Source: an uncultured Clostridia bacterium
GTDB taxonomy: Bacteria; Bacillota; Clostridia; Oscillospirales; Ruminococcaceae
Reading direction: 5' to 3'
Length of the DNA stretch: 47,618 nucleotides
NCBI GenBank assembly: GCA_945873955.1
Contig: CAMCFA010000012.1
Location: 1-47,618, forward strand
Both the position numbers and the translations under genes were made by a program. Each line of letters starts with the position of its first letter. The first letter of the stretch is position 1. The notes beneath the pieces are model-generated. The model was not told where the DNA came from. It worked only from the letters and a program-made list of their open reading frames with translations, and ran no database searches. This document shows, one piece after another, positions 95 to 47,618 of this stretch.

Positions 95-1279
95 TCAATC
101 TACTTCTATCTCCTGTTCCTCCGCAATATTGCCCCGCAGGGTATATGTCACCACCAACCTTATGCCGTCCTCCTGCGGTATTGTCTGCTTATCACAGGAA
201 ACTACTTCGTACTCCCCATAGAAATTCTGCTCAAAGTCCTCCTGCATTTTCGCCAGCCCCGCAATGCAATCGTCGGCGGAGCGCGTGATATCCTGTGTGC
301 GCCAGCGAGTGAAAGTCCCGTGCCGGAGCTTCAACGGAGTTTCATGTCCGAACAGCCGTATCACCTCTGTTTCCTCAGAGTAAACGGCGTTATCCACCTG
401 CGCCGTCCCAAAGAACAGCGGGTATACATCGTCCTGAAACACCAGCCATGTGAATTCGGTCGTTTCGCCGTCGGCGGTCTGTATCGTGTCGTTGTACGGC
501 AGGAAGAACTCCCTTGTTTCGGTGAATTCACCGATCACCTCAGCGCTGGCATGCTTGAAGGTCACATTCCCGGCGGCGTCGGTCACGACCCCGCTGACAA
601 GAAGCCCTCCCTCCGGGACGCCGCTGCCTGTTTCCACCGCAAGCGACCCGTCCCGCACTGTGTGGTTGATCACCACCGCGTCCCGAACAGCAACCAGATT
701 GCAGGGGGAATCCACGGACACCATTTCCGGTATCGGCGTTCCGGTTTCCAGCGCGACCTCCACCCGGAAGCCAACGCAGGTGACGTCCACCCATGAGCTT
801 TCCGGGACCTCCAGCATTATGCGCCGCTCTGCGGCGGTAGAGTCTATATGCCGTGCAGAAGAACCCTCCCGTATGCCGCACTCGTCCAGGATAGTCATGA
901 CCTGCGCCCGCTGCGCCGCAGTCACCGTGCCGGAGCTGACAATCTCTATATCCTGAATGTGGCTCTCACTCAGAGCTGTCAGCAGAATGAACGCCAGAAA
1001 TCCTATGTACAGCCCGATACGGCGGCTGTATTTCATTGCGGTGAAGTACAGCCCCCGCCGCTTCCCCGCTCTTATTCTCACACCATAACGGCGGGCAGTC
1101 TTGGCGGTCTCCCAGTAGTCCGCCGGGGAGACCATGCCGCTCACTGTGCCGTCGCCGAAACGCACCCGGCGCAGTTCTATCCCGCGCTCTATCAGCGAGG
1201 TGGTCATTTTCTCCGGGAATCCGCCTATCCCGCTGAATTCCACACTTCCCAGCCACGAGCCGGTTCTTTTTTCTGCCAT
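95..1279 (-). CDS. yqfD: Sporulation protein YqfD
   Basis: A 394-residue protein of the YqfD family, membrane-anchored proteins conserved in spore formers and expressed in the mother cell during sporulation. A soluble N-terminal part (about residues 1-80) is followed by one membrane segment near residues 90-105 (IGLYIGFLAFILLTAL) and a long extracytoplasmic part that starts with a POTRA-like stretch. The open frame extends upstream to 1372, but that would overlap yqfC heavily. ATG at 1279, two bases after the yqfC stop, is the sensible start. It forms an operon with yqfC, which is the usual order. Family assignment is firm; the biochemical role is not established. Confidence 0.9.
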   Translation of the reverse strand: MAEKRTGSWLGSVEFSGIGGFPEKMTTSLIERGIELRRVRFGDGTVSGMVSPADYWETAKTARRYGVRIRAGKRRGLYFTAMKYSRRIGLYIGFLAFILLTALSESHIQDIEIVSSGTVTAAQRAQVMTILDECGIREGSSARHIDSTAAERRIMLEVPESSWVDVTCVGFRVEVALETGTPIPEMVSVDSPCNLVAVRDAVVINHTVRDGSLAVETGSGVPEGGLLVSGVVTDAAGNVTFKHASAEVIGEFTETREFFLPYNDTIQTADGETTEFTWLVFQDDVYPLFFGTAQVDNAVYSEETEVIRLFGHETPLKLRHGTFTRWRTQDITRSADDCIAGLAKMQEDFEQNFYGEYEVVSCDKQTIPQEDGIRLVVTYTLRGNIAEEQEIEVD

Positions 1280-3704: not shown

Positions 3705-3760
3705 ACAAATCTCTGAAGATGTGGTATACTCATCATATTACAAAAGAAAGGACAGACAAA

Positions 3761-4375
3761 ATGAAAAAGCTATTATCTGTTTTGCTGGCGGCGCTGATGA
3801 TATTCTCACTCACCGCCTGCGCGAATGATCCAAGCGCACCGGAGAGCGCGGTTTCTTCCGAGGACATTTTCTCTGCGGTATCAGTGCCGGAGCTTAACGA
3901 AGAACCTGCCGCCGAGCCTCCCGTAACTGACGGACAGCCCAACGCTCCCCCGACCGTGGAGCAAACCGAAGTATTCACCGCCGAGGCGCTCCCGGATATC
4001 ACCACCGAATCGCCGGAGCTGCCGGAAATCGACGAGAACGGCAGCTACACCAGCCGCGACGACGTGGCGCTGTATATCCACACCTACGGACATCTTCCGC
4101 AGAACTTCATAACCAAAAAGGAGGCGCAGGAGCTTGGCTGGAGCGGCGGCTCGCTGGAGCCCTACGCGCCGGGCAAATGCATAGGCGGCAGCCGTTTCGG
4201 CAACTACGAGGGTCTTCTGCCGGAGAAAGACGGCAGGAGCTACACCGAGTGCGACATTGACACACTGGGAGCGAGCAGCCGCGGCGCAAAGCGTATCGTT
4301 TTCTCAAACGACGGGCTGATATATTACACTGACGACCATTACGAGAGCTTCACGCTGCTTTACGGGGAGGAATGA
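3761..4375 (+). CDS. Barnase-type ribonuclease, lipoprotein
   Basis: A 204-residue exported guanyl-specific RNase. A signal peptide ends in a lipobox (FSLTAC, Cys at about residue 20), so the enzyme is probably lipid-anchored rather than freely secreted. An acidic, Pro-rich linker (about 22-90) precedes the barnase domain (about 95-204). Barnase landmarks are present: the ITKKEAQELGW helix with the active-site Lys, APGKCIGG, the catalytic Glu in TECDI, the Arg in KRIVFS and the catalytic His in DDHYESF. ATG 3761 is preferred over an upstream in-frame start because GAAAGGA precedes it at good spacing and it begins the signal peptide. The barstar gene follows directly. The likely role is a toxin or a nutrient RNase, with the inhibitor protecting the cytoplasm. 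Confidence 0.9.
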   Translation: MKKLLSVLLAALMIFSLTACANDPSAPESAVSSEDIFSAVSVPELNEEPAAEPPVTDGQPNAPPTVEQTEVFTAEALPDITTESPELPEIDENGSYTSRDDVALYIHTYGHLPQNFITKKEAQELGWSGGSLEPYAPGKCIGGSRFGNYEGLLPEKDGRSYTECDIDTLGASSRGAKRIVFSNDGLIYYTDDHYESFTLLYGEE

Positions 4376-29865: not shown

Positions 29866-31449
29866 CTAATCCACTTTTCCAATAAACCTGTAATAAATCT
29901 CCACCCTCATGGTGCCGTTTTCGCTGTCGCGCTCATGAACAACGATTTTCTCTATCAGCAGGTGAAGAAGCTCTTCTGAAAGCTCTGTGATGTCGGTGTA
30001 GTGCGAGATGAGTTCAGCAAATTTCTCCGCATTTTCGGTGAGCTGCTGAGATTGGTTCAGCTTGGCGGATATTTGCTTTAGCCGTTCTTGAATCTCCGTG
30101 CGCTCTTGCTCAACATTTCTGCTGAGTTCGGAATAGTTGTCCTCGGTGATTCTTCCGAGCGCCTTGTCTTCATATAGGCTCTGAAATATCTTGGCTAACG
30201 CCTGTTTTCGTGCGGTCAGCTTCTCCGCTTCCTTTTTAAGTGCGGAAAGCCCCGCACTTTTTTCGCGGTTTGAAGCGTCCAGCAGCTGCTTAACAAACCT
30301 GTCCTTTCCGTCAGCCGAAAGCGCAGCGTATCGTTGAATACTTGTCAGAACGATCTGCTTGATTTGTTTCAGCGTAATGCTATGCCGAGAGCAATCGGAC
30401 TTTCCGTAGCGCTTATATATCGCGCAGGAGTACCGACCAGATTTGTTGCTCTTACTGAACACCATTTTTCGCCCGCACTCACCGCAGGCCATAATCCCGC
30501 GGAAAATGTTTTCTGGGTTTGTGACCTTGCCATGCTGCTTTACTGCAATCCTCTGCCCGACTTCCTCAAAATCCTCACGAGAAATCAGCGGCTCGTGGTT
30601 GTCGCGGACTACTATCCACTCGTCCTCGGGAGCAGTGCACACTTTCTTGCTTTTGAATGACTTGCTCTTTCTGCGCCCGTTCACAAGGTCGCCAACATAA
30701 ACAGGATTTGTCGCAATCGAATAAACGCTCCTGTCCTCCCATGCGTAAGGGTGCTTTGCGGAAGCCGAATCCTTGTACACACCATATTTCTCTGCAAGAA
30801 AAGCCCTCGGCGTCAGTATCATATCCTGCTCCAAACTTTTCGCGACCTCATAGCAGCTTTTTCCTTCCAGCAATTGCTCAAAAATGCGCTTCACGATTGG
30901 CGCATTTTCATCGGGGACAAGCCTGTGCCTGTCGTTGTCAGCCCGCTTGTAGCCATACGCGGGATAACCGCCGAGGAACTCGCCGTTTTTCGCTTTAATA
31001 TGCAGCGCGGACTTAATCTTTCTGCTGCAATCCCTCGCGTACCATTCGTTGATGATGTTCTTGAATGGTGCGAACTCGTTATCGCCGTTGTCGGAGTCAA
31101 CATTGTCGTTGACCGCAACGAACCGCACATCATGTTCGGGGAAGAAAATCTCGGTGTAGTAGCCTGTTTTGAGGTATTCCCGCCCCAGTCTGGAGAGGTC
31201 TTTCACAATGACCGCGCCAACCCTGCCGCATTCAATGTCCGCAATCATGCGGCAGAAATCGGGTCTGTCAAAATTCGTTCCGCTGTAACCGTCGTCAACA
31301 TAGAATTCTGTGTCCGTAAAGCCGTTGTCACGTGCATACTGCGACAGCATGGTTTTCTGTGTCTGAATGCTGATACTTTCAGAGGAAAACTCATCGTCCC
31401 TGCTGAGTCTGCAATAAAGCGCTGTTGTTCTGTTCTGCTGTATATTCAT
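29866..31449 (-). CDS. Large serine recombinase
   Basis: A 527-residue site-specific recombinase that integrates and excises the element. The resolvase-type catalytic domain (about 8-150) has the nucleophile Ser16 in YCRLSRDDE, then YVDDGYSGTNFDRP and VIVKDLSRLGREYLKTG. The DNA-binding recombinase domain follows (about 165-290), then a zinc ribbon (CGECGRKM and later YKRYGKSDC) and a C-terminal coiled coil (about 390-480). An open frame reaches 31563, but ATG 31449 with AAAGGA upstream and a consensus promoter further back is the real start. Typical of Tn4451/TnpX-type and other clostridial integrative elements. Confidence 0.93.
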   Translation of the reverse strand: MNIQQNRTTALYCRLSRDDEFSSESISIQTQKTMLSQYARDNGFTDTEFYVDDGYSGTNFDRPDFCRMIADIECGRVGAVIVKDLSRLGREYLKTGYYTEIFFPEHDVRFVAVNDNVDSDNGDNEFAPFKNIINEWYARDCSRKIKSALHIKAKNGEFLGGYPAYGYKRADNDRHRLVPDENAPIVKRIFEQLLEGKSCYEVAKSLEQDMILTPRAFLAEKYGVYKDSASAKHPYAWEDRSVYSIATNPVYVGDLVNGRRKSKSFKSKKVCTAPEDEWIVVRDNHEPLISREDFEEVGQRIAVKQHGKVTNPENIFRGIMACGECGRKMVFSKSNKSGRYSCAIYKRYGKSDCSRHSITLKQIKQIVLTSIQRYAALSADGKDRFVKQLLDASNREKSAGLSALKKEAEKLTARKQALAKIFQSLYEDKALGRITEDNYSELSRNVEQERTEIQERLKQISAKLNQSQQLTENAEKFAELISHYTDITELSEELLHLLIEKIVVHERDSENGTMRVEIYYRFIGKVD

Positions 31450-31498
31450 AAAAACCGTCCTTTCTTTCAGCAGACAGAATCGGAATAATTGCATTTTT

Positions 31499-31527
31499 AT
31501 TATACACCACTTTAGAAGAAAATTCAA
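31499..31527 (-). promoter_or_regulatory. Promoter of the serine recombinase gene
   Basis: On the minus strand, TTGAAT (31522-31527), 17 bases, TATAAT (31499-31504), about 50 bases before the start. Confidence 0.7.
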
Positions 31528-31569
31528 GACATTAAAGTATAAAAGTTTTGTTTCCGATTCCATTTGCTG

Positions 31570-31598
31570 TTGTAAAAGATTTGGATATGTGGTATAAT
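31570..31598 (+). promoter_or_regulatory. Promoter of the STAND ATPase gene
   Basis: TTGTAA (31570-31575), 17 bases, TATAAT (31593-31598). The transcript would begin about 20 bases before the GTG start. Confidence 0.65.
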
Positions 31599-31627
31599 GG
31601 TTGAAAAAGTAGTTGGGAAGTGATTGG

Positions 31628-33853
31628 GTGAAAAGGTTAGATTTCAGCGGAGTAATAAAAATACTGCTTGGCTACCGCAGTCTAAGTGAGAGCTTTTCGC
31701 AGAGCGAATTTGTCGCGGAGTTGTTCAGCGCGTTCTATGAAAAGAATGACGCCTCCGTTGACGAGGGGCAGGTCAGCCGTTGGGTGAACGGCGACGAGCG
31801 TGTACCCGAGAAATACGCTTCCTTTTACGCCGAGAACAAGAATTTCGCTGCGCTCTGCTCGGACATAAAAACGAACATCTTTCCCGTCCTCTCCGACCGC
31901 TGGCAGGCGGTAAATGAACTCCGCGATTTAGCGCTTTACGACAGCGGAATTTCCGAAAACAAAAAGGCGGAGCTGCTGTGTGGGCTAAGCTCCAACAACG
32001 ATTATGCGTATGCGGAGTTTGTCGCAAAGACGATTTTGTTCGCAATACAGCGCGGAATTACAAATCTGCAAAAGTATTCCGAAAGCGCCTCGCCTGTACT
32101 TTCCGAAATCGTGTTCGGCTGTGATGTTCCAAAGGTCTGCCCAAATTTCTGCGGCAGAGAAACCGAGCTTTCCGAGCTGCACCAACTGCTTACAGAAAAC
32201 GGCAAAGTGTTCGTCAGCGGAATTGCAGGAATGGGTAAAACAGAGCTTGCCAAAGCCTACGCCAAGTCGCACAAAAAGGACTACACCAACATTCTGTTTC
32301 TGAACTACTGCGGCAGCCTTGCAGAAACCATTGCCGCGCCTGTTTTCGTGGGAGATAATGGTCTGGTGACTACTTCAGACCGCTACCAAAACCACCTCCG
32401 CCTACTGAAAACCCTGTCTTACAGTACACTTATTATAATAGACGGCTTTGACACGGTTGCCGCCGAAGAACCGGAACTTGCGGAAATAATGCAGCTTCGC
32501 TGCCGAGTGCTTTTCACCACCCGAAGCAGCTTTGAAAACAGCGCGGTGCTGAACCTCGCAGAGCTGTCCGAGGAAAGCGCATTTTTTCTTTTTTCAGCAT
32601 TTTTCTACCGCGCCGAAACAGAGCGTGAAACCGTCACCGAAATAATCCGCACAATTCACTCCCACACCCTTGCGATTGAGCTTGCGGCAAGACTTTTGCA
32701 GCGCAGTTTAATCAAGCCGAATGAGCTTTTGGAGAAACTGAAAAGCGGCTTCGGAAACCCCAATACCGCCGATAAAATCAAGGTAACAAAGGACGGAAAC
32801 GCCTTCAGCGACACATATCACAACCACATTAGAACGCTGTTCGCACTGGGAAATCTCTGCGATGAGGACAAGTATGTAATGCGCTGTCTTAGCTTTGTTC
32901 CCGAACGCGGAATTGACGCGCGGAGCTTTGCGCTTATGGCGCAGCTTGCGACCGTGAACAGCATAAACGACCTCGCAGAATACGGTTATATCCGCAGTTT
33001 TGAAGCTGACGACCTCACAATTTCGCTTCACCCGATGATACGGGATATTACCGTCACTGATTTACAGCCGAGTTACACGAACTGCGAACGGCTGATGAAT
33101 TCTATCGGCATGGTTTGCAGGTTTCACGGAACTCTTATCCCGAATTTCCGGCTTTTCGCGGATATTCTTGACGGCATAATGACCTATATTAAAGCGGATT
33201 CGCCCGGTTTTATCCCATTCGCCGAGGACGCATTCACTTATGTTTTTCAACACAGCACCGAGGCTCTATGCGAAAAGATTATTGCGAGAATTGAAGCTGC
33301 CGACTGCCTTTCCGCCAACGACAAGGCTTTGCTATGCGATTTCCGCGCCCAGCTTTTGAGAATTTACAGAAAAGATAACCTCGCGGCGCTTGAACAAGAA
33401 AAGCAGGCGTTTGAAATTTGCACTGACGAAAACAGCCTGCTTTACATGAACCTGTGCAACAATCTCGGCAGTTTGTACATGGAAAATAACGACCTTGTTT
33501 CTGCCGAAAAGTACATCAGCAAAGGATTTTCGCTGCTGAAAAATCGCGTTGTGATTGACCAAGACTACATAACCGGGCATTTGGTTAAGGGCTGGCTGCT
33601 GTGTAGGCTGAACAGAATTGAGGAAGCTGCGCCGCTGTTTACAATGTGTTACGAAATTCTTCGCGAAAACAACGCTTTATGCTCGGAGAGCTGCGCTATC
33701 TGCTTTGAAAATGCGGCGATTATCTGCGAGGAAAAAGACCGAGCTGACTATGCGAAAATGCTTTTGCAGTGCGCTTATGAGATTTTCTGCGCCCTGCCTA
33801 ACCGCGAATTGTATGAGGACGAGATTGAGAAAATCCTCTCTTACCTTGAATAA
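31628..33853 (+). CDS. STAND (NB-ARC-like) ATPase with HTH-like N-terminus and TPR-like C-terminus
   Basis: About 741 residues. The N-terminal 70 residues look like a divergent helix-turn-helix (DEGQVSRWVNGDERVPEKYA). The NTPase domain (about 170-450) has a Walker A loop GIAGMGKTELAKAYA, a Walker B-like TLIIIDGFD and a sensor-like RVLFTTRS, as in NB-ARC/AP-ATPases. The C-terminal third (about 520-741) has helical hairpins of TPR type (LYMNLCNNLGSLYMENND, LVSAEKYISKGFSLL). Such STAND proteins are ligand-gated switches, either regulators or abortive-infection defence proteins. No effector domain is visible. GTG 31628 with GGGAAG upstream is preferred over TTG 31613. It is convergent with the relaxase gene. 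Confidence 0.75.
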   Translation: MKRLDFSGVIKILLGYRSLSESFSQSEFVAELFSAFYEKNDASVDEGQVSRWVNGDERVPEKYASFYAENKNFAALCSDIKTNIFPVLSDRWQAVNELRDLALYDSGISENKKAELLCGLSSNNDYAYAEFVAKTILFAIQRGITNLQKYSESASPVLSEIVFGCDVPKVCPNFCGRETELSELHQLLTENGKVFVSGIAGMGKTELAKAYAKSHKKDYTNILFLNYCGSLAETIAAPVFVGDNGLVTTSDRYQNHLRLLKTLSYSTLIIIDGFDTVAAEEPELAEIMQLRCRVLFTTRSSFENSAVLNLAELSEESAFFLFSAFFYRAETERETVTEIIRTIHSHTLAIELAARLLQRSLIKPNELLEKLKSGFGNPNTADKIKVTKDGNAFSDTYHNHIRTLFALGNLCDEDKYVMRCLSFVPERGIDARSFALMAQLATVNSINDLAEYGYIRSFEADDLTISLHPMIRDITVTDLQPSYTNCERLMNSIGMVCRFHGTLIPNFRLFADILDGIMTYIKADSPGFIPFAEDAFTYVFQHSTEALCEKIIARIEAADCLSANDKALLCDFRAQLLRIYRKDNLAALEQEKQAFEICTDENSLLYMNLCNNLGSLYMENNDLVSAEKYISKGFSLLKNRVVIDQDYITGHLVKGWLLCRLNRIEEAAPLFTMCYEILRENNALCSESCAICFENAAIICEEKDRADYAKMLLQCAYEIFCALPNRELYEDEIEKILSYLE

Positions 33854-34759
33854 TCACCACTCAAATTCGTACTCCTCGTCCTCTTCGTCGTACTGTTCCT
33901 CATACTCCGCGCTGTTTATGCGCTCAAGTTCGGTTTCGATTCCCTGCTTTGTGAACATATCCCCAAGCCTGCTTCCTCTGACGGAAACAGGTTTTCCGTT
34001 TTTGTCCTTGTATTCGGGGTGGCGATACGAAATGGTGTTTCCTGCAACTCTACATTCCACTCCGTAATCTTCCTTGAGAGCGCGAATGACATCTTCAAAG
34101 CTGCAATTCTTCGGTTCGCAAATCTCAATCCGAATAACCTCGCGCAGTTCGTCCTTGAAGCTTCTCTTGCCGAGCTTTTTCATCTGCGACTCGCCGCGAG
34201 TTCGCCGTTCGGCAGAGCCGTAGAAATTTTCGCGAATCGAGTTAACAAGCCCGTTCGCCTCGCATTGTTTCCCGAAATACTCGGACATCTCCACAAGCTC
34301 TTTCCTGCCGCGGCGGAACGATTTCCCTGTCTGCATATTACAGTTGCTGACCAAAAAGTGAGCGTGAATGTGTTCCGTATCCGTATGTACCGCAAACAGC
34401 ACTTGGTAGCCTTTCTTGTAAAACTGTTCGTTCGCAAACTGCCGCGCTATCCGGTACGCAAGCTCGTATGTCAGCCGTTCGTTGTCGGCGGGGTGAAACG
34501 AAATTGCTATCTTGTGGGCAAGAATGGTGTCGGGTTTGAGGTGGCTGGACGACTTACCGTTCAGCTTGCGCGTGACAAGCACATTGTTCGCGAAATTATC
34601 TCGGTCACAGCCGAGTGCATTGTAGAGGTGCGGCTCAGTCTTTTTTATTCCGCTGCGGATTTGGTCAGGGCGTTTTCCGAGAATGTAAGCCGCAGCGGAT
34701 TTCAGCTGCCCGACCTCCTTGCAGGGCGAGAACTTGACATTCACATTTCCGTATGCCAT
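33854..34759 (-). CDS. Relaxase / mobilization nuclease
   Basis: A 301-residue relaxase of the MobA/VirD2-like (Relaxase, MOB-P-like) family, which nicks oriT and pilots the strand in conjugation. The metal-binding three-His motif is clear in HTDTEHIHAHFLVSN, and the upstream AHKIAISFHPADN is the usual second motif. The likely nucleophilic Tyr lies in the N-terminal SAAAYILGK segment. The C-terminus ends in a very acidic tail. It overlaps mobC by 19 bases, which is the normal order. No helicase domain or type IV secretion genes are present, so the element depends on a helper. Confidence 0.9.
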   Translation of the reverse strand: MAYGNVNVKFSPCKEVGQLKSAAAYILGKRPDQIRSGIKKTEPHLYNALGCDRDNFANNVLVTRKLNGKSSSHLKPDTILAHKIAISFHPADNERLTYELAYRIARQFANEQFYKKGYQVLFAVHTDTEHIHAHFLVSNCNMQTGKSFRRGRKELVEMSEYFGKQCEANGLVNSIRENFYGSAERRTRGESQMKKLGKRSFKDELREVIRIEICEPKNCSFEDVIRALKEDYGVECRVAGNTISYRHPEYKDKNGKPVSVRGSRLGDMFTKQGIETELERINSAEYEEQYDEEDEEYEFEW

Positions 34760-35127
34760 TCGCCTGCCTCCACAACATACATATCCACAATCGGCTTATT
34801 CAGGAACGCTTCAAGGCTTTCCATTACGCTGTCATATCGTTTCTGAATTGTGCAGAGAGAACTTTCCGCTTCGGGAAACCGCCCGCTGTTCGCGAGGTAC
34901 GCGATTTGGTTTATGTTCACGCCGACTTTCTGAAGCTCGAAGAAAATAGCCTTGAGGGTGTTATTGAATTGGTAGATTTTCACATCGGATTTATCAAGTA
35001 TTTTCAGCAGAAATGCGGTTTTATTCAAACCGCTTGCTTTCTGCTTTTTGTTCCACCGCTCCAGCTCTTTTTCGGAGAGCCGAAACGAAAGCTGATGCGA
35101 ACGGACACGGTTGCTTTTGGTACTCAT
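34741..35127 (-). CDS. mobC: Relaxosome accessory protein MobC
   Basis: A 128-residue MobC-family protein that binds near oriT and helps the relaxase open the DNA. The N-terminal RSHQLSFRLSEKELERWNKK is a ribbon-helix-helix-like DNA-binding start. The FFELQKVGVNINQIAYLANS segment is the family hallmark. It is translated ahead of the relaxase with overlapping ends. Confidence 0.88.
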   Translation of the reverse strand: MSTKSNRVRSHQLSFRLSEKELERWNKKQKASGLNKTAFLLKILDKSDVKIYQFNNTLKAIFFELQKVGVNINQIAYLANSGRFPEAESSLCTIQKRYDSVMESLEAFLNKPIVDMYVVEAGEWHTEM

Positions 35128-35180
35128 GTAGCCTACTCCTTTCTGTGATTCATGGCTGATTTCTGTGACCCGCTGGGGGT

Positions 35181-35356
35181 CTCGGGGGCGAAGCCCCTGA
35201 GCAGGTAGAACCGACGGCGTCTAGCCGGAGGTACTACCTGCCTATCCCCACAACGCACCGGATTTGGCTAGACAAGCAAGCCCTCCGTTGTGGGGATTCG
35301 CGTCCCCGACGGCGGCAGGAACCTACGCCAAACGAGGTCGTGCAATCCGCCGTCGG
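35181..35356. other. Candidate oriT with nested inverted repeats
   Basis: The 380-base gap between mobC and the parR-like gene holds four inverted repeats: CTCGGGGGC/GCCCCTGAG (35181-35201), GCAGGTAG/CTACCTGC (35201-35241), CCCCACAACG/CGTTGTGGGG (35246-35295) and CCGACGGCGG/CCGCCGTCGG (35306-35356). Such structure directly upstream of mobC is where oriT is usually found. Downstream, AAAAGTGAT occurs twice (near 35420 and 35475) and could be a binding site for the parR-like protein. The nick site cannot be read. Confidence 0.6.
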
Positions 35357-35507
35357 TCGCTCACGGGCTATGGCTTAGGGGTGTTTTGTGTGACATCATG
35401 CAGATAGCACTATTGCTCAAAAGTGATGTACATGGTTTTCAAGTGCCTTTTCATGTGACTTCATTCTTTGGCAAAAGTGATTTCTAAATTGCTGAAAAAG
35501 AAATAGT

Positions 35508-35888
35508 TTATCCGTCAAGAAAGTCCCAATCCACATTGTCGGTATTTTGTTCCGTTGATTGTTCAACAGGCTGAACGCCCGCAGTACCTACCAGTTTCAG
35601 CAGATATGATGTCAGGAATGTTGGCAATCCCTTTTCAAGAGACTGTTCCAGCGCTTCAACGATACGCTGCACGAATATTTCCTCGCGCTCACGGCTCTCG
35701 AAAAAGGGGTCGTACTCCGCTCGTTCCTGCCGCTCAAAGTAATCGCACACCGCAAGAGTAATCGCATGGTTGACCGACTTGTATTTCTCTTTGTCGAGGT
35801 TCTGCAAATACTCCCACGCGGCTCGCTGCTCGGGCTTGTCAAGATTGAAACGGAGCGTTGTGCTTTTGATTTTCCCCAAACCGCTCAC
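35508..35888 (-). CDS. ParR-like partition adaptor
   Basis: About 126 residues. It is a small DNA-binding-type protein placed directly after the actin-like gene, the position of ParR/StbB adaptors. Residues KSTTLRFNLDKPEQRAAWEY and YKSVNHAITLAVCDYFERQ look like a ribbon-helix-helix unit. The acidic C-terminus ends in VDWDFLDG, a candidate peptide for binding the actin filament. GTG 35888 overlaps the ParM stop (GTGA); a longer frame to 35945 would overlap by 61 bases. Identification rests on context and fold pattern rather than a clear family match. Confidence 0.6.
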   Translation of the reverse strand: MSGLGKIKSTTLRFNLDKPEQRAAWEYLQNLDKEKYKSVNHAITLAVCDYFERQERAEYDPFFESREREEIFVQRIVEALEQSLEKGLPTFLTSYLLKLVGTAGVQPVEQSTEQNTDNVDWDFLDG

Positions 35889-36799
35889 CTCTGCTTCTGG
35901 AGCTTGTCCAGCGCAAGGGATTCGTAACCTTTCGCCGTTGCGCAAATATCCGAGATAATTGTAACGCGGTCGCTAGGCGGTACAAAATGCTTGAAAATGC
36001 AGCTTCCACCGCCGACAACATAGAGCCGCATAAGCTCTGGGTTGTACTCGTACTTTCGGAGCGTACCAAAAATTTCGGTACAATACTCCTCCACTGCGTC
36101 TTTGATACAAGCGAGGTACTTGTCGCCAATGTCCGCCTTTCCGTACCGAATTACGCTCTCAATAATGCTCTCGTCAATTTTCGTCCCGAATCTGTCCATT
36201 ACGGCGTTTGCGGCGCGGATAACGCATTGGTTGACACCGAGTTTCTCAGTCCAGCATTTGCTTGCAACAGGTCGCGTGTTTGTTATGTACATGATATTCA
36301 TTGTTCCGTTGCCGATATCCGCGAGCATATTTACACCGCGCATTTCGCCGAGTTTGTCGATAACCGCGGTGTAGCCCTGCGGGAATACCGAACAGCCAAC
36401 GAAATGCACCTTGTAAAGCTTGTCGTTGAACTCGAACTCCACGCGTTCGTTTCTCATAAGGTAGTTGGTGAACTCCTCGCGCTGCGCCTTTACCCAAGTA
36501 AGCGGAAGCCCTGCCGCGATGTGAACCTCTGCCTCGGTAAGTCCTACGCGCTTTAGCTCCTTCGCCACACCCATGAGCGTGAGCAGGTAGTAGTCGCTGT
36601 CGCTCGCCTTGTCCGAAATGAATGCCTTGTGACCCTCCCCGCAGCTGTAATACATTCCGTCGTAGCGCAAAATATTTGAGCCGAATGTGGGGCGGGTCGT
36701 TGAACCCACAATACCCGTCGGGGTTACGGTGTTTGCGGTCTTAATGTTGCCGTAGCCGTGGTCAATGCCGATGATTTTGATGTTGTTAAGTGCTTTCAT
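35885..36799 (-). CDS. parM: ParM/StbA-like plasmid segregation actin
   Basis: A 304-residue actin-like ATPase of the ParM/StbA type. The phosphate-1 loop is IIGIDHGYGNIKTA at the N-terminus and the second phosphate loop is LADIGNGTMNI (about residue 160). The adenosine region is VVGGGSCIF near the C-terminus. Such filaments push plasmid copies apart and are also found in integrative elements, where they may stabilise the excised circle. ATG 36799 has GGAGG upstream inside the end of the tnpW-like gene. A decayed copy of the middle of this gene lies at 11487-11728. Confidence 0.88.
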   Translation of the reverse strand: MKALNNIKIIGIDHGYGNIKTANTVTPTGIVGSTTRPTFGSNILRYDGMYYSCGEGHKAFISDKASDSDYYLLTLMGVAKELKRVGLTEAEVHIAAGLPLTWVKAQREEFTNYLMRNERVEFEFNDKLYKVHFVGCSVFPQGYTAVIDKLGEMRGVNMLADIGNGTMNIMYITNTRPVASKCWTEKLGVNQCVIRAANAVMDRFGTKIDESIIESVIRYGKADIGDKYLACIKDAVEEYCTEIFGTLRKYEYNPELMRLYVVGGGSCIFKHFVPPSDRVTIISDICATAKGYESLALDKLQKQR

Positions 36800-37359: not shown

Positions 37360-38250
37360 ATGCTTATAAAAGAAATATTGGAGTATTGTGATAAAGATTA
37401 TTTGCATAAATCGTGTGAGTGCCCTGACTGTAACCACCCTAACATGTGTCCGGGCAACTGTGGCGATTGCCTCAAACAAATACATTTTAAATCCAATATC
37501 CCCCAAGCAAGGCACAGTTACGATTGTGTTAACCTCGTGAATTACTATGTATGCAAATACGCCTTAAAATACACATCCGAGATATACAATGCACTTTATG
37601 GCTTGGGAAAGATAGCAAGTGCAGAAAAACTAAAAGTCCTGTCTATTGGCTGTGGCCCATGCACAGACCTGTTTGCCCTTGATATTATGAGAAAAAGAGG
37701 GCATTATAGCTTTGAGAAGGTAGAATATCTGGGTGTAGAGCCATTGGCTTCATGGAGCAGAATTCATAACAAGATAGCCCAATATGATGAAGATTTCAGC
37801 GTGCACTTTGAGTATAGCGATATTCAAAGGGTTCTGCCCATACTAAAAAACGAGGGCTTTGAAGCAGATGTGATTATTATGAATTATCTTCTTTCCGATT
37901 TCCATAAATATGGAGGTCAAGAGAATGTTCTTGACTTTTTGGACGAACTGGTGTATTATATAGAAAAAGTATGTCCTAACACTGTTATTATCATAAATGA
38001 TATAAACCTTGAATGCTCAAGAGGCGGCGGCAGAGACTATTTTGATACTTTGTTTTGGAAATTACAGCCTATGGGCTTTCAATGTTCCAGAAGGCATTTT
38101 AATAACAGTAATAGGGAGAATCATTATCATTATGGTATAGAGTATTCTTCAAACAATTTAGTTTTTCCCGATAAAGTCATTGGGAAATACATAAATTATA
38201 GTCCATTCGAGACCTGTGCCAGTGCTCAAATAATTATATACAAGGAGTGA
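37360..38250 (+). CDS. Cys-rich protein with class I SAM-methyltransferase-like domain
   Basis: A 296-residue protein. Residues 17-40 contain a dense Cys cluster of the pattern CXCXXCX5CXXXCXXC, likely to bind zinc or an iron-sulfur cluster. From about residue 85 it has a Rossmann methyltransferase pattern: KVLSIGCGPCTDLFALDI is motif I (G-x-G-x-x-x-D variant), VEYLGVEPLASW is the acidic-loop region with Glu in place of the usual pattern, and ADVIIMNYLLSDF is motif IV-like. It has AGGAGGT before the ATG and its own promoter. It forms a two-gene operon with the DUF1848 gene 6 bases downstream. I do not recognise a named family. Confidence 0.65.
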   Translation: MLIKEILEYCDKDYLHKSCECPDCNHPNMCPGNCGDCLKQIHFKSNIPQARHSYDCVNLVNYYVCKYALKYTSEIYNALYGLGKIASAEKLKVLSIGCGPCTDLFALDIMRKRGHYSFEKVEYLGVEPLASWSRIHNKIAQYDEDFSVHFEYSDIQRVLPILKNEGFEADVIIMNYLLSDFHKYGGQENVLDFLDELVYYIEKVCPNTVIIINDINLECSRGGGRDYFDTLFWKLQPMGFQCSRRHFNNSNRENHYHYGIEYSSNNLVFPDKVIGKYINYSPFETCASAQIIIYKE

Positions 38251-38256
38251 TGTCTC

Positions 38257-39192
38257 GTGATAATAAGCGCAAGCCGCAGAACTGACATTCCCGCATTTTA
38301 CAGCGAGTGGTTCTTCAACAGAATAAAAGACGGCTATGTGCTTGTCAGAAATCCGATGAACATTCATCAGGTGAGCCGCATAAGCCTTTCTCCCGATGTT
38401 GTGGATTGTATCGTGTTTTGGACAAAGAACCCCAAGCCAATGATGAGCCGACTTGATGAGCTGAAAGGTTACAACTATTATTTTCAGTTTACACTTAATT
38501 CGTATTCGACAGATGTTGAGCCGAATGTTCCATCAAAGGGCAAGGATATACTTAATACTTTTATTGAGCTTTCGGATATGGTTGGACCTGAAAGAATCAT
38601 TTGGCGTTACGACCCAATTATTGTAACCGAAAAATATTCTATTGAATATCACGCCACCTACTTTGAAAAGCTTGCTCTGGCTCTGAGCGGGAAATTCGGC
38701 AGATGTGTTATCAGTTTTGTAGATGAATACAAAAAGAACGCAAAGAATTTCCGTGATAATGGTCTGAAAGAGCTTGAAAGAATTCAAATGGCTGACATTG
38801 CACAGCGTTTTTCCGAAATAGCAAAAAGGTATAGCTTTAAGATTTATACCTGTGCCGAACAAATAGACCTAAGCGATTACGGAATTGAACACAACAGTTG
38901 CATAGACAAAGAGCTTATCGAAAGTCTTGTCGGAGCAAAGCTGAAAGTTCAGAAAGATAAAACACAGCGCGATGAATGCGGGTGTGTTGACAGCATTGAT
39001 ATCGGCTCTTACAACACCTGCACACATGGCTGTAAATATTGCTATGCCAATTACAGCTCAGGTGTTGTCTTAAACAACTTTAGCTGCTACGACCCAAATT
39101 CTCCTCTGCTATGCAGTTTGCTTCAGCCAGAGGACAAGGTGACAGAACGTCCGATGAAATCACTGATTGATAATCAGCTTGATTTATGGTAA
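38257..39192 (+). CDS. DUF1848 family protein (putative Fe-S / radical-SAM-like)
   Basis: A 311-residue DUF1848 protein. The family start is IISASRRTDIPAFYSEWF, followed by VFWTKNPKPM and YYFQFTLN. The C-terminal part has CGCVDS, then CTHGCKYCYANY, a CxxxCxxC motif like that of radical-SAM enzymes though at the wrong end of the protein. Biochemical function is unknown; iron-sulfur chemistry is inferred from the Cys pattern. GTG 38257 follows AAGGAGTGATG. It is co-transcribed with the Cys-rich methyltransferase-like gene. Confidence 0.82.
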   Translation: MIISASRRTDIPAFYSEWFFNRIKDGYVLVRNPMNIHQVSRISLSPDVVDCIVFWTKNPKPMMSRLDELKGYNYYFQFTLNSYSTDVEPNVPSKGKDILNTFIELSDMVGPERIIWRYDPIIVTEKYSIEYHATYFEKLALALSGKFGRCVISFVDEYKKNAKNFRDNGLKELERIQMADIAQRFSEIAKRYSFKIYTCAEQIDLSDYGIEHNSCIDKELIESLVGAKLKVQKDKTQRDECGCVDSIDIGSYNTCTHGCKYCYANYSSGVVLNNFSCYDPNSPLLCSLLQPEDKVTERPMKSLIDNQLDLW

Positions 39193-43794: not shown

Positions 43795-45135
43795 ATGTGG
43801 AATATATTTGAAGCGTTAGTCACCTTATTCGAGCAGCTTTTGGTTTTTCGGTTCATCTGCGGAGTGCTGAAATATGATATATCCTGTCCGAAAGGAAGGA
43901 TAGCATACATCTGCGGAAGCGTGGTCGGTACGGTCTTTGCAATAGCATTGAGCTTATTCTCCCGTTCTACTTACTGGATTGGGATAGCTTATGTCATGTA
44001 CTGGTTTATATATTCATTGATTGGCGTGTACTGGTTTATATTTTCGTTGATTTGTTTTAAGGGCGCTGTCCTGAAAAAACTGTTCGCCTCTGTGGTCGCC
44101 GATGTAGTGTTATTAGGCACAAAAGCTCTAGTGACAAGCATTGCTTGTGCCTTGATTGATATTGATGTATCCTATGTTTATACCAAGCCCGGACTTGTTC
44201 GCTTTTTGGTGCTGGTTACGATACAGGTCATAAATGTGTATCTGTTCAGCCTTATTCTGAAGTTTGTTGATGGTTCGCTGCTTAGAATGAAAAAGTCCGA
44301 ATGGGCGCTTGTTATCTCAGTATTTTTAGTTTCGTTCATGGTACTGGCTTTGATACATACGATTTTTTCCGCCATTAATCTGAATGCAGTCAATACTGTA
44401 TTGGTTTTTGCTTCGGAATCGGGAATTGTCCTTCTTAATGTGATATGCCTGTATATGACGCTTTCACTCAGCAAAAGCAACAGCGCCGCAGAAAAAATCA
44501 AACTGCTTGAACAGCAACAGGAGCATAATATCCAATATGCCGAATCAATCAGAAAGCAGTACGAGGAAATGCGAAGCATTCGGCACGATATGAAACAGCA
44601 CCTTGCAGTAATATCACGGCTCGCCAACGAAGGAGACATATCGGGCGCGGCAGAATACGCAGCCGAATGCTCAAATCTACTTGAAGCAGTTGACATATTC
44701 GTTGATGTAAAGAATAATTTTATAAACGCTATCCTTAATTCCAAGCTCAGCATAGCCAAATCTAAGGGGATAACGGTTCTTTGCAGTTCAAGCAGCGACA
44801 TATCCGGTATATGCGAGCACGACCTTTGCATTCTGCTCGGAAATATGCTTGATAACGCCATAGAAGCAGCTGAAAAAATTCAAGGCGCAAAATTCATAGA
44901 GGTTTCAATATTGGTTGATGAGGACAAATTGAACATTTGCGTTTCAAACTCTATTGCAAGTTCCGTTCTGAAAAATAACCCCAAACTCAAAACCAGCAAG
45001 AGTAATAAAGCTTTACACGGCTTTGGAATAAGGTCTATATGGCACATTGCCGAAAAATATAACGGCAGCCTTGATTTTTACGAGGAGGAACTGGTGTTTA
45101 ACTGTCGAGTGCTGCTGTTTAAGAAAGAGCTTTGA
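43795..45135 (+). CDS. GHKL sensor histidine kinase (AgrC-like)
   Basis: A 446-residue kinase of the AgrC/HPK10 type. Six or seven N-terminal membrane helices (about 1-215) form a peptide-sensing region. A coiled coil (about 225-255) follows, then the H box SIRHDMKQHLAVI (His about 264), the N box LLGNMLDNAIEAAEK (about 350) and the G box HGFGIRSI. GGAGG before ATG 43795 is preferred to TTG 43783. Within the membrane region, VMYWFIYSLIG is followed by VYWFIFSLIC, an in-frame 30-bp tandem duplication (43997-44056). Partner of the upstream LytTR regulator. Confidence 0.92.
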   Translation: MWNIFEALVTLFEQLLVFRFICGVLKYDISCPKGRIAYICGSVVGTVFAIALSLFSRSTYWIGIAYVMYWFIYSLIGVYWFIFSLICFKGAVLKKLFASVVADVVLLGTKALVTSIACALIDIDVSYVYTKPGLVRFLVLVTIQVINVYLFSLILKFVDGSLLRMKKSEWALVISVFLVSFMVLALIHTIFSAINLNAVNTVLVFASESGIVLLNVICLYMTLSLSKSNSAAEKIKLLEQQQEHNIQYAESIRKQYEEMRSIRHDMKQHLAVISRLANEGDISGAAEYAAECSNLLEAVDIFVDVKNNFINAILNSKLSIAKSKGITVLCSSSSDISGICEHDLCILLGNMLDNAIEAAEKIQGAKFIEVSILVDEDKLNICVSNSIASSVLKNNPKLKTSKSNKALHGFGIRSIWHIAEKYNGSLDFYEEELVFNCRVLLFKKEL

Positions 45136-45438
45136 TCAGTTAATATATTTACTACTACAAGTTTGGAGTTAATTGTTCCAAGTCCCTGCTGGGGGATGAC
45201 ATTATCAATTTTTACTGTCTGTCTAGGTCGCGATTTTTTTGAATTCCGTAGTAGTATTTTATAAGTCAAAACAATATGAACGAATTATTGCGTTGAATGT
45301 TTCACGGGAATCTGCGATATAAATCAGAATTGACAAACCCTCCTTTCATCGTAGCTCAGCGGTACTATTGTGCTGATGTAATTTTGTGGCAGGCGATATA
45401 CCTAGCAGAGAAACACCTTCAAAAACAGTATACCTTGT
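45136..45438. other. Non-coding gap after the sensor kinase
   Basis: AT-rich. It contains ACTACTAC (45151 region) and GTAGTAGT (45249 region) as a widely spaced inverted repeat, and AAGGAGGG on the minus strand near 45340 with no convincing gene after it. GTAGCTCAGCGGT at about 45351 looks like a tRNA D-arm, but no T-arm or acceptor follows. Confidence 0.4.
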
Positions 45439-45466
45439 AAAAAAAGCGGCAGCTGTTTTGCTGCCG
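45439..45466 (-). terminator. Terminator of the reverse transcriptase transcript
   Basis: CGGCAGC (45447-45453) and GCTGCCG (45460-45466) form a 7-bp GC stem; on the minus strand it is followed by seven T residues (45439-45445). It ends the RT transcript about 135 bases after the stop codon. Confidence 0.82.
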
Positions 45467-45600
45467 TTGAAAGCATTATTCTGATTCTGTCTGCCTTTCT
45501 TTGCACAATCGGAAGCGCCCGATTTCTGCATATAATACTTCGCCCTCTGCATCAATAGCAGGGGGCTGCTTATTTGGGCTAAGGGAGTTATTCTGCGGAT

Positions 45601-46929
45601 TTATTGTGGTTTGTTGAGCGCTTTTCTGATTTTTCTCATGTGCTTGCGCACAGGACGCTTTACCGATTCAGCTCTATCGAAGGTATTGTATGCGCGATTT
45701 ACATAGGTAATAAAGTTGCCACCTTTCATTCCCAAATTGGCTTTTGCGCCCTTGCATGAATAGAGCCTGTACAAATTCCTGCAAGAAATAGGATTTCCGT
45801 TTGGAGAAATAAAATCGCTTTCAACAATTTGTTTGGCTTTTCTGTAAAGCCTGTAATAGTACTTGGAAACGGTTTTATCCCTTATGGTAACTTCCGTTCC
45901 ATCAAACGAGAACCCCAAAAAGTTTATTCGTGACTTTTGAGTAAGCTCCTCCTCGGCGGACTCATAAGAAAATACCACTTTATCACAGAAATGGTATAGC
46001 TTTGTCTTTTCTGGAGATAACTCCACGCCCGGCATATCTTTATAATACTGCATTATCCATGAATATACTTCATTAAACTTTGATACAGAGATATTTGGTA
46101 AAGCAATAATAAAATCATCGCTATACCTCATATATAGTCCGCCCAACTCACGAACATAGTTATTGATTATCTTATCTGCGCTAAGCATATAGATATTCGC
46201 CAAAACGGCGCTGATTGCAGAGCCTTGCGGAATCCCGCAATTTCCATTGCGCTGTAAATACTGCTTTTTGTGCTGTTTGAATTCCTGAGAAGATAGTACT
46301 GTTTCCTTTTCGTTAAGCTCACGAATACCCTTTTGAGTATTGGGTAACCCATTTATTGTAAGCAAGTCATTTATATCCCAAAAAGAGTATCTTGTTATGT
46401 TCTTAAATACTGCGTAGTAATCGTCGGGCAGCTTTGTCACACTCAAAAGACTGCACAGTTGAGATTTAAGGTAATTGTGGTCAACTTTGTCAAAAAAACT
46501 TGTAAAATCACCTATCATAACAAAGCAATCTTGGTTTGCTTTAATAAAATCAAATGCTGTTTTAGCAAATGTAATATTATTTTGCTTTTCTAAATTGTTT
46601 CTGTATGCAATAGCGACATTGTTTATCCCGTCATCCAAAGCTCTCTGATTATACCTTTCATTCAGCAGGAAAGAGTAATATTGATAGATGCATCTATCAA
46701 TATGGGCGGAGTAGCAAATTGGTCGCTCTTTATTCTTTACACCATCGGTTTTGTTATACTTTTTAAATTTCCTTGTGCTTCGAATAAAAGGATAAAACCC
46801 GTGATGAGCAACCGACTTAGGATTTGTGATGTAGTTCCATATAAAGTTGTTTCCAACAGATACTCTCTTGTCAAAATGAGCATAGCTCTTGATGGCGCTG
46901 TTCTTTTTTCTCCATTTTAATATATCCAT
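45601..46929 (-). CDS. Stand-alone reverse transcriptase, likely defence-associated (UG/DRT-like)
   Basis: A 442-residue RT. Motifs in order: a palm motif MIGDFTSFFDKVDH with the first catalytic Asp (about residue 138), NCGIPQGSAISAVLANIYM (about 235), the active site YMRYSDDFIIA (about 270) with the Asp pair, and SRINFLGFSFDG. The PQG form rules out diversity-generating RTs, and there is no maturase or endonuclease domain as in group II introns. The C-terminal 100 residues are basic (KRPVRKHMRKIRKA). ATG 46929 with AGGAG five bases upstream fixes the start; the open frame to 47028 is leader. A promoter and a structured leader of about 290 bases precede it, and a terminator follows. Best explanation: an anti-phage RT with an upstream template RNA. 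The exact class cannot be set from sequence alone. Confidence 0.85.
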   Translation of the reverse strand: MDILKWRKKNSAIKSYAHFDKRVSVGNNFIWNYITNPKSVAHHGFYPFIRSTRKFKKYNKTDGVKNKERPICYSAHIDRCIYQYYSFLLNERYNQRALDDGINNVAIAYRNNLEKQNNITFAKTAFDFIKANQDCFVMIGDFTSFFDKVDHNYLKSQLCSLLSVTKLPDDYYAVFKNITRYSFWDINDLLTINGLPNTQKGIRELNEKETVLSSQEFKQHKKQYLQRNGNCGIPQGSAISAVLANIYMLSADKIINNYVRELGGLYMRYSDDFIIALPNISVSKFNEVYSWIMQYYKDMPGVELSPEKTKLYHFCDKVVFSYESAEEELTQKSRINFLGFSFDGTEVTIRDKTVSKYYYRLYRKAKQIVESDFISPNGNPISCRNLYRLYSCKGAKANLGMKGGNFITYVNRAYNTFDRAESVKRPVRKHMRKIRKALNKPQ

Positions 46930-47222
46930 TTTTTCTCCTAAAAAGTGAAAATGCCCAACGGCAAGGGGGTAGCATCCAGCACCGTCAGGCATATACATTA
47001 ACACGACATAGAAAGAAAGTCCCTTCAATATCGACTACCCTAAAAACAATACTCCATTGTGGTATAATAACAAAGGAAGGTGGTTACATGACCAGCGTAA
47101 ACATAATTGCAATAGCAATAGTCTTGCTGTTCGTACCTGAACAAGTTGTTCCGAAACTTCTATTCGAAATCATCGGAAACTACTTGACAACAATTCCTCT
47201 CCATCATATCAGTATATGATGC
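46930..47222 (-). ncRNA. Candidate structured template RNA / leader of the RT gene
   Basis: From the promoter at 47229-47257 the transcript would start near 47222 and run about 290 bases to the RT start. Visible structures: ATCATAT/ATATGAT at the very 5' end (47203-47220), a 12-14 bp hairpin CAAGTTGTTCCGA/TCGGAAACTACTTG (47142-47186), AGCAA/TTGCT (47114-47128), and ATGCC-CA-ACGG/CCGT-CA-GGCAT (46951-46992). The loop of the last contains a segment (46967-46972) complementary to 47035-47040, a possible pseudoknot. This is the position and size of the non-coding RNAs of DRT2- or DRT9-like systems. Confidence 0.55.
47088..47219 (+). CDS. Possible 43-residue hydrophobic peptide antisense to the RT leader
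   Basis: ATG 47088 to TGA 47219, preceded by AAAGGAAGGTGG at good spacing and by TATAAT (47063-47068), though no -35 is visible. The product starts MTSVNIIAIAIVLLFVPEQV, a short hydrophobic stretch like a small membrane peptide. It lies wholly antisense to the RT leader, so it may be a chance frame created by the RNA structure; a small toxin-like peptide is the alternative. Confidence 0.25.
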   Translation: MTSVNIIAIAIVLLFVPEQVVPKLLFEIIGNYLTTIPLHHISI

Positions 47223-47228
47223 ATAAAT

Positions 47229-47257
47229 ATTATAGCACGGATTATCATACTTTGCAA
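47229..47257 (-). promoter_or_regulatory. Promoter of the RT leader and gene
   Basis: On the minus strand, TTGCAA (47252-47257), 17 bases, TATAAT (47229-47234). It is placed about 300 bases before the RT start codon. The stretch from 47258 to about 47450 is very AT-rich and shows no gene. Confidence 0.65.
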
Positions 47258-47499
47258 TAGTTTTTTGAAAAAAATAGTAAAAATAGAAACTTACAATAAT
47301 TTCATTTATAGAAAACCTCATTCAAGAAATACTATCGCCATTTACATCGATAAGGAAAGTACTTATCAATGCTTATTCAAACATTTTATATAAATCTGGG
47401 TATTGTTTTGCGCATATTCTAATTCTGTCTGGTTTGAAATGCGCAATGGGAATTGCTCTCTTGTTTTCCCCCATACCCCTTTAGCGCTTTTGAACGCGT

Positions 47500-47618
47500 T
47501 TGCGCGCTGTCGCGCGAGTAGCGGCGCGTTCGCGCCGAGTGTGGGGCTTTGCCCCACACCCCACTTCCTTTTGGAAGCCAAAAGGAAGCGAAAAGCAATT
47601 TTGCTGCGCAAAAAGTTA
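47500..47618. repeat. Composite dispersed repeat, second long copy (runs off the window)
   Basis: GCGCGCTGTCGCGCG and CGGCGCGTTCGCGCCG hairpins are followed by GTGTGGGGC/GCCCCACAC, TTTTGGAAGCCAAAAGGAAG and the core AGCAATTTTGCTGCGCAAA. The second half matches 22480-22533 almost base for base. It continues past the window end. Confidence 0.65.

Follow-up and report, generated by a model that had tools for sequence, protein, structure and literature searches.

What does a lone reverse transcriptase (RT) gene with about 290 bases of structured leader do in a Clostridia genome? The gene lies in a stretch of 47,618 nucleotides (nt) (contig CAMCFA010000012.1, uncultured Clostridia bacterium, Ruminococcaceae, assembly GCA_945873955.1; hereafter, the window), and an earlier note on this DNA (here, the original prediction) had proposed that it forms, with its leader, an RT-noncoding RNA (ncRNA) defence system of the DRT2/DRT9 type (DRT, defence-associated RT). 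Here, we report that the unit is very probably a divergent DRT2 antiphage system whose template RNA would yield concatemers carrying a hidden gene, neo. Coordinates are positions in the window, in which the unit occupies the minus strand (Table 1); loci are numbered, with L001 the window's own. Published work is cited for passages of the sources named (main-text passages for PMC12039810 and PMC11100668).

Table 1. Positions of the predicted system and of nearby elements in the window
Feature	Position	Strand	Details or basis
Promoter of ncRNA-RT unit	47229-47257	-	TTGCAA, spacer 17, TATAAT, TG before -10; 10/12 consensus matches; consensus only
Leader ncRNA, about 290 nt (294 nt, 47223-46930)	46930-47223	-	5' end from promoter and RT-6 match, 3' end from RT start; predicted ends
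Rfam RT-6 RNA (RF03027), 5' handle plus conserved AUUGUUGUCAA	47150-47223	-	53.6 bits; gathering score 46.7
5' handle hairpin ATCATAT-ACTG-ATATGAT	47203-47220	-	Read from sequence; RT-6 consensus stem
Jump word ATTGTT, 5' copy, first template bases	47189-47194	-	Exact 6-nt repeat, period 144
Predicted reverse-transcription template, 144 nt	47051-47194	-	Repeat, junction layout, shuffle tests
Predicted neo -35 box TTGACA, cDNA strand, permuted in genome	47184-47189	+	Junction reconstruction
Predicted neo ATG start	47088-47090	+	Frame stop-free through every joined unit, 48 codons per unit
Predicted neo ribosome-binding site AAGGAAGG	47073-47080	+	Junction reconstruction
Predicted neo -10 box TATAAT	47063-47068	+	12 nt from unit start; 17 nt after -35 once joined
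Second ATTGTT jump word, immediately 3' of template	47045-47050	-	Exact 6-nt repeat, period 144
3' scaffold domain, model R1	46948-47054	-	67.3 bits; window itself in training set
Pseudoknot strand A, GGGTAGT	47034-47040	-	Helix 1 of covariation analysis
Pseudoknot strand B, GCTACCC	46967-46973	-	Helix 1 of covariation analysis
3' hairpin (buttress-like), 5' arm ATGCCTGACGG	46982-46992	-	Helix 3 of covariation analysis
3' hairpin, 3' arm CCGTTGGGCAT	46951-46961	-	Helix 3 of covariation analysis
Drt2 reverse transcriptase, 442 amino acids	45601-46929	-	ATG at 46929, stop 45601-45603; PQGS, YSDD
Intrinsic terminator	45439-45466	-	Stem 45466-45447 plus T run
Mobile element: serine recombinase with DUF4368, MobA-type relaxase, ParM-like ALP_N protein	29866-36799		Domain matches
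Adjacent methyltransferase-like and DUF1848 genes	37360-39192	+	PADLOC C3a159 'methyl transferase' E 3e-18; RTasDUF1848 (DRT) E 1e-52

The RT, which carries the PQG motif and YSDD active site noted earlier, is a divergent Drt2 member. PADLOC matched it to Drt2 at E = 3.3e-142 versus E = 1.3e-21 for Drt9, and comparison with PDB sequences and of the predicted fold likewise placed it closest to Drt2, with DRT9 far weaker; the fold ranking also puts retron and group II intron folds lower, a ranking that alone excludes nothing. DRT9 (PDB 9vma and 9nlv) resembles the window in joining an RT to an ncRNA, but its product is homopolymer DNA (passages of PMC12483538), and the window RT matches it far more weakly; the DRT2 half of the original proposal is supported and the DRT9 half was rejected. 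RVT_1 was the sole Pfam domain above cut-off; the RT thus has no further domain in these models, and its unit contains no partner gene, with a predicted terminator after the RT. In a tree, proposed earlier as a check, the RT fell among Drt2 proteins, nearest those with the RT-6 leaders described below and apart from two group II intron RTs. A longer, TTG-started RT frame from 47028 overlaps the leader, is not needed and was set aside.

The leader folds better than shuffled sequence: its 294 nt reach a minimum free energy of -83.5 kcal/mol, versus -69.0 (standard deviation, 5.0) for shuffles (z = -2.9; 1 of 200 as low). Its 5' part matches the full 75-nt model of the Rfam family RT-6, the sole match in the window at Rfam cut-offs; this family covers only the first 75 nt, in the window the first quarter of the putative template RNA of about 290 nt, and its conserved UUGUCAA contains, in the window, the complement of the predicted neo -35 box. 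RT-6 precedes Drt2 in 13 of 16 related loci scanned (9 over cut-off; not L158, L159 or L160), as it also does in L161 and the window. Among 15 more distant loci, RT-6 occurred in none (E <= 0.05) and RT-12 (RF03016) in two, one over cut-off, both of them annotated drt2 loci. The RT-12 matches lie at 1334-1446 in L151 and 1321-1446 in L152, directly before the annotated drt2 genes. An RT-6-only search of 398 genomes returned two matches, the window and genome G981 (below cut-off), which has Drt2 there.

At the 3' end, 13 sequences (window included) share a pseudoknot, a 4-pair tower base and a 12-pair hairpin enclosing the second pseudoknot strand. The structure was drawn from the tested sequences, which biases upward the 97.3% of 298 cells found paired, and the two-sided changes in 19 of 23 pairs are the stronger point. 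Partners slid by one to three columns paired in 32 to 52%, none of 500 shuffles reached four of the five measures (9 reached the number of pair types), and RNAalifold recovered the 3' hairpin independently. The leader is thus conserved and covarying among relatives; neither result named beforehand as a refutation (an RT clustering with non-defence RTs, a leader lacking conservation or covariation) was observed. The loop pairing suggested between 46967-46972 and 47035-47040 proved one pair longer, a 7-pair helix paired in all 13 sequences with two-sided changes in five pairs. As for the four hairpins proposed, those at 47220-47203 and at 46992-46982 with 46961-46951 were borne out; the middle of the leader is instead the predicted template. 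Sixteen stretches had been prepared for this analysis and 14 aligned; L009 was misaligned and dropped (a similar pseudoknot and hairpin are visible in it by eye but left out of the counts), and L022 and L158 stand outside the 13-row alignment. The derived model R1 reached 6 of 27 sources at E <= 1, namely four training sequences, L158 (E = 1.5e-6, absent from the training set) and, weakly, L159 (E = 0.19), with no match at that threshold in L009, L022 or the more distant loci.

Between handle and scaffold, the word ATTGTT recurs at leader positions 30 and 174, a period of 144. When copies of 47194-47051 are joined head to tail, the junction reads TTGACA-ACAATACTCCATTGTGG-TATAAT (spacer, 17), followed by AAGGAAGG and ATG, a predicted sigma-70 promoter, ribosome-binding site and start codon. 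The -35 box lies 11 nt from the unit end and the -10 box 12 nt from the unit start, so that in the genome both stand in the wrong order; no promoter-like site was found on the plus strand of unjoined DNA at 45000-47618. The 144-nt unit is divisible by three, and one frame is open across the junction, predicting a 48-residue hydrophobic repeat, MTSVNIIAIAIVLLFVPEQVVPKLLFEIIGNYLTTILHCGIITKEGGY, with a grand average of hydropathy of 1.14 (2 of 500 random-codon controls as high). The leader thus holds a predicted template, as the original prediction supposed, with a full neo layout, a putative hidden gene that goes beyond its claims. At 47045-47075 and in several relatives, a short hairpin just ahead of the jump word holds the -10 complement; by eye, and uncounted, its changes look compensatory.

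The layout score of the window (15.0) was reached by 0 of 100 and 0 of 10,000 dinucleotide shuffles, and among 28 loci, 16 had no shuffle in 100 as high and six had one to three. A second rule, blind to open reading frames, took the unit length only from the first TGTCAA (failing that, from a variant differing in the first base) and the best-matching complement of TATAAT, and then asked whether that length was divisible by three and open. The counts exclude the duplicate L002, L153 (stretch without leader) and two loci, L010 and L011, that are second pieces of G000 and G981. Of 35 loci, 22 passed: 14 of 16 RT-6-type loci (L158 included via model R1; L155 and L019 missed; unit lengths of those passing, 117 to 165 nt), 4 of 6 in the branch of a Clostridioides phage and its kin (L012 and L020 missed, each yielding an open unit from a different anchor) and 4 of the 13 remaining (three without anchor). 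One pass, that of L154, has a 1-nt repeat only and is probably chance. Interior shuffling leaves an open frame in 6 to 48% of cases among RT-6-type loci (0% for L019); after merging into 13 lineages (L008 absorbing L003 and L161, and L156 absorbing L155, itself a miss; the chance for L019 hand-set to 0.15), 12 pass versus 0.76 expected (P ~4e-15 if lineages are independent). As a positive control, the Klebsiella-type L151 passes with 111 nt, a unit length reported in print (PMC12039810); two other annotated drt2 loci, L150 and L152, fail. An internal junction-promoter candidate in L009 was a false choice, another promoter being likelier. In L005 and L006 the RT is damaged (one in-frame stop; a match ending at residue 184), and the template is still an open unit.

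Klebsiella pneumoniae DRT2 (PMC12039810; PMC11100668; PDB 9c0i) shares with the window a stand-alone Drt2 RT (425 to 442 amino acids), an upstream ncRNA (280 to 290 nt) built of a 5' handle, a template, a pseudoknot and a 3' hairpin, a unit divisible by three, a neo that is antisense to the ncRNA and encodes a hydrophobic repeat, and a TTGACA-17-TATAAT junction whose -10 box lies 12 nt from the unit end (PMC12039810, where tower and buttress hairpin complete the RNA plan). The two differ in unit length (144 nt in the window, 120 nt in Klebsiella), distance from -35 box to unit end (11 versus 12 nt), distance from -10 box to start codon (19 nt versus about 13 nt reported) and active site (YSDD versus YCDD); the window RT is 29% identical to that of L151, a close relative of Klebsiella DRT2, and the window has RT-6 without RT-12 where L151 has RT-12. 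Klebsiella DRT2 jumps on ACA, and lost homology between its ACA words abolished defence (PMC11100668). Since the template ends lack ACA and the leader lacks RT-12, we place the window outside the Klebsiella type, in a different DRT2 branch. By hand count, ATTG stands at both template ends in 12 of 16 RT-6-type loci (L019 included; not L007, L009, L022 or L158), and the Clostridioides-phage branch shows other words, such as GTAT or TATT. No earlier account of the RT-6-type branch was found within main-text passages of PMC12039810 and PMC11100668 or passages of PMC12596737, PMC12632851 and PMC12483538. Passages of the Tang et al. 2024 preprint state that ncRNAs can be predicted in divergent DRT2 clades while Neo is harder to annotate, and that other mechanisms may act there.

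By analogy with DRT2, the unit would act as follows. One promoter would give one transcript, the first 290 nt or so of which would be the ncRNA, gripped by the RT at the 5' handle and the 3' pseudoknot scaffold. On phage infection, the RT would make complementary DNA (cDNA) from the 144-nt template delimited by the two ATTGTT words. Whenever a round finished, the growing strand would re-anneal through its AACAAT end to the downstream ATTGTT and copying would restart, giving head-to-tail repeats. Made double stranded, the junctions would form the complete promoter, followed by ribosome-binding site, ATG and a frame without stop, and the Neo repeat protein would halt growth of the infected cell. 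The sequence itself shows which family the RT belongs to and how it is predicted to fold, the family of the RNA, covariation in the scaffold, the layout of the template, a junction that stays in frame and the recurrence of this layout in relatives. The rest is carried over from the published Klebsiella system, namely binding of the RNA, triggering by phage, jumping, the second strand, expression, toxicity and defence, and antiphage activity is likewise proposed from likeness to DRT2. If so, the known DRT2 mechanism would reach a distant Clostridia branch once the jump word may differ, and word, unit length and junction therefore become testable branch by branch.

Several observations weigh against this reading. 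The RT scores 366 bits on the NCBIfam Drt2 equivalog model, 24 short of the cut-off of 390, and in the 398-genome sample just two of four genomes with Drt2 have an RT-6 match. ACA, the Klebsiella jump word, is absent at the template ends, where the window has ATTGTT. In the rest of the window, 11 of 7,518 overlapping 294-nt tiles reach the score of the leader, although none of the 11 combines a repeat of at least 6, a 12-of-12 promoter and an endless frame. Shuffles did as well in 10 to 39 of 100 cases for L026, L023, L018, L024, L019 and L021, and L155 fails the blind rule, passing only with a weaker promoter (TTGACT/TACAAT). Differences at Neo codon positions 1, 2 and 3 number 34, 38 and 44 over six relative pairs, with no clear third-position excess. 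A further exception is L019 (contig C116 of G981), which has RT, RT-6 and a scaffold scoring 95 bits on R1 (L019 was in the training set), with TATTG found at each end of the template; its unit is 166 nt with stops in every frame and lacks the junction promoter, which leaves no neo. L019 may be a decayed locus or a maker of noncoding concatemers and, as a natural member without neo, could reveal the effect of the cDNA by itself.

These last points bear on the idea that the system is DRT2 by descent with the cDNA itself active rather than Neo, the endless frame being a by-product of promoter and spacing constraints. Poor conservation of the Neo amino-acid sequence and the retention of RT, scaffold and jump word in L019 without an open frame both speak for it. 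We nonetheless consider it highly unlikely: the frame played no part in choosing the units found open and divisible by three in 14 of 16 RT-6-type loci; the junction promoter of the window is followed by a ribosome-binding site and ATG; Neo repeats lie above the random-codon hydrophobicity mean in 14 of 14 loci tested, not each significantly (controls as high from 0 of 500 for L157 to 102 of 500 for L003); and stop codons in neo abolish defence in Klebsiella (PMC12039810).

That the leader is a mere cis-regulatory RNA of the RT gene (an attenuator or stability element), with the RT acting alone, would suit its position as a 5' leader and its better-than-shuffled fold, but this RNA belongs to a family found with Drt2, its 3' plan of a pseudoknot in a hairpin is known from the RNA bound by the DRT2 RT (PMC12039810), and a junction layout that none of 10,000 shuffles reached is unexpected in a regulatory leader, all of which makes this account extremely unlikely. 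We give almost no credence to a third account, in which the gene is left over from a mobile RT (that of a group II intron, a retron or another element) and plays no part in defence. A mobile element does lie about 9 kb away, and the group II maturase model gives the RT domain 74 bits; the cut-off there is 300, however, and the retron St85 model gives 41 bits against 235. At Rfam cut-offs the window has no intron RNA, no msr/msd RNA was found among Rfam-covered families, and the locus is rare, scattered among relatives and present in phage records.

Under the DRT2 reading, the two Rfam families also acquire a proposed function. Both occur before Drt2 genes, and they most likely belong to the ncRNAs of two DRT2 branches, RT-12 apparently covering the 3' portion of the Klebsiella-type ncRNA. 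A literature search returned no paper naming RF03027 or RF03016 (RT-6 or RT-12), nor one treating DRT2 together with Rfam; to our knowledge, the families are named only for their proximity to RTs. A bolder version, which we hold to be doubtful, has RT-6 and RT-12 as template-RNA pieces of two DRT2 branches, that of the window jumping on ATTG rather than ACA, and members like L019 having lost neo frame and promoter with the concatemeric DNA itself as effector, rather than having decayed.

The transcription signals agree with the original prediction, with a TTGCAA-17-TATAAT match where a promoter was expected at 47229-47257 and, downstream of the RT at 45439-45466, a stem (45466-45447) with T run. 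Such matches are no more frequent than by chance (promoters, 3 observed versus 8.9 in shuffles; terminators, 4 versus 2.3), and both signals therefore rest on their position. Just upstream of the promoter, a GC-rich, repeat-like stretch occupies 47440-47618 at the contig end.

The locus is single copy in its own genome; an identical RT with identical 480 nt upstream (L002) lies on another contig, the sole match of that contig search. With own genomes counted, relatives of the window RT (E <= 1e-30) occurred in 5 of 394 genomes of the order, 4 of 391 of the class and 4 of 398 of the phylum, and with L008 as query in 8 of 397 genomes of the family of L008. Relatives were present in 3 of 50,697 phage records (two being unverified metagenome clones), and 36 of 72,556 plasmid records matched, the weakest being group II RTs. 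An alignment scan of viral contigs gave eight relatives (L027 and L029 too partial for use), protein scans of these contigs with P0001, L008 and L013 gave none, and a DNA pattern scan for the conserved RT-6 core gave at least 120 stretches (L030-L149), which were left unused. This rare, scattered distribution fits a defence gene without proving it. In L013, an unverified phage clone, group II intron RNA pieces (Rfam D1-D4; 285-597, minus strand) lie opposite and upstream of the DRT2 relative.

The AT-rich setting described earlier holds at 45 to 47 kb (G+C, 0.40 and 0.36, versus 0.50 to 0.52 at 34 to 37 kb) and is not peculiar to the RT, with 37 to 39 kb (0.37 to 0.39) and 43 to 45 kb (0.41) likewise AT rich. 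The mobile element noted nearby was confirmed at 29.9 to 36.8 kb. The possible defence cassette is probably the methyltransferase-like/DUF1848 pair, in an AT-rich stretch 6 kb from the RT; both genes match PADLOC accessory models, and no link to the RT was found, neither partner occurring in 163 fetched loci (most extending just a few kb past the match) and a literature search giving no paper that pairs DUF1848 with an RT. Between this pair and the RT lie an FtsX-type permease with its ABC ATPase and a LytTR/GHKL two-component pair; of 10 neighbours compared with PADLOC, only the methyltransferase-like gene, DUF1848 and the ABC ATPase (an ATPase-type match) gave matches. Elsewhere in the window, at 3719-4375 (plus strand), a barnase-type ribonuclease domain (PF00545) ends a protein of 218 amino acids.

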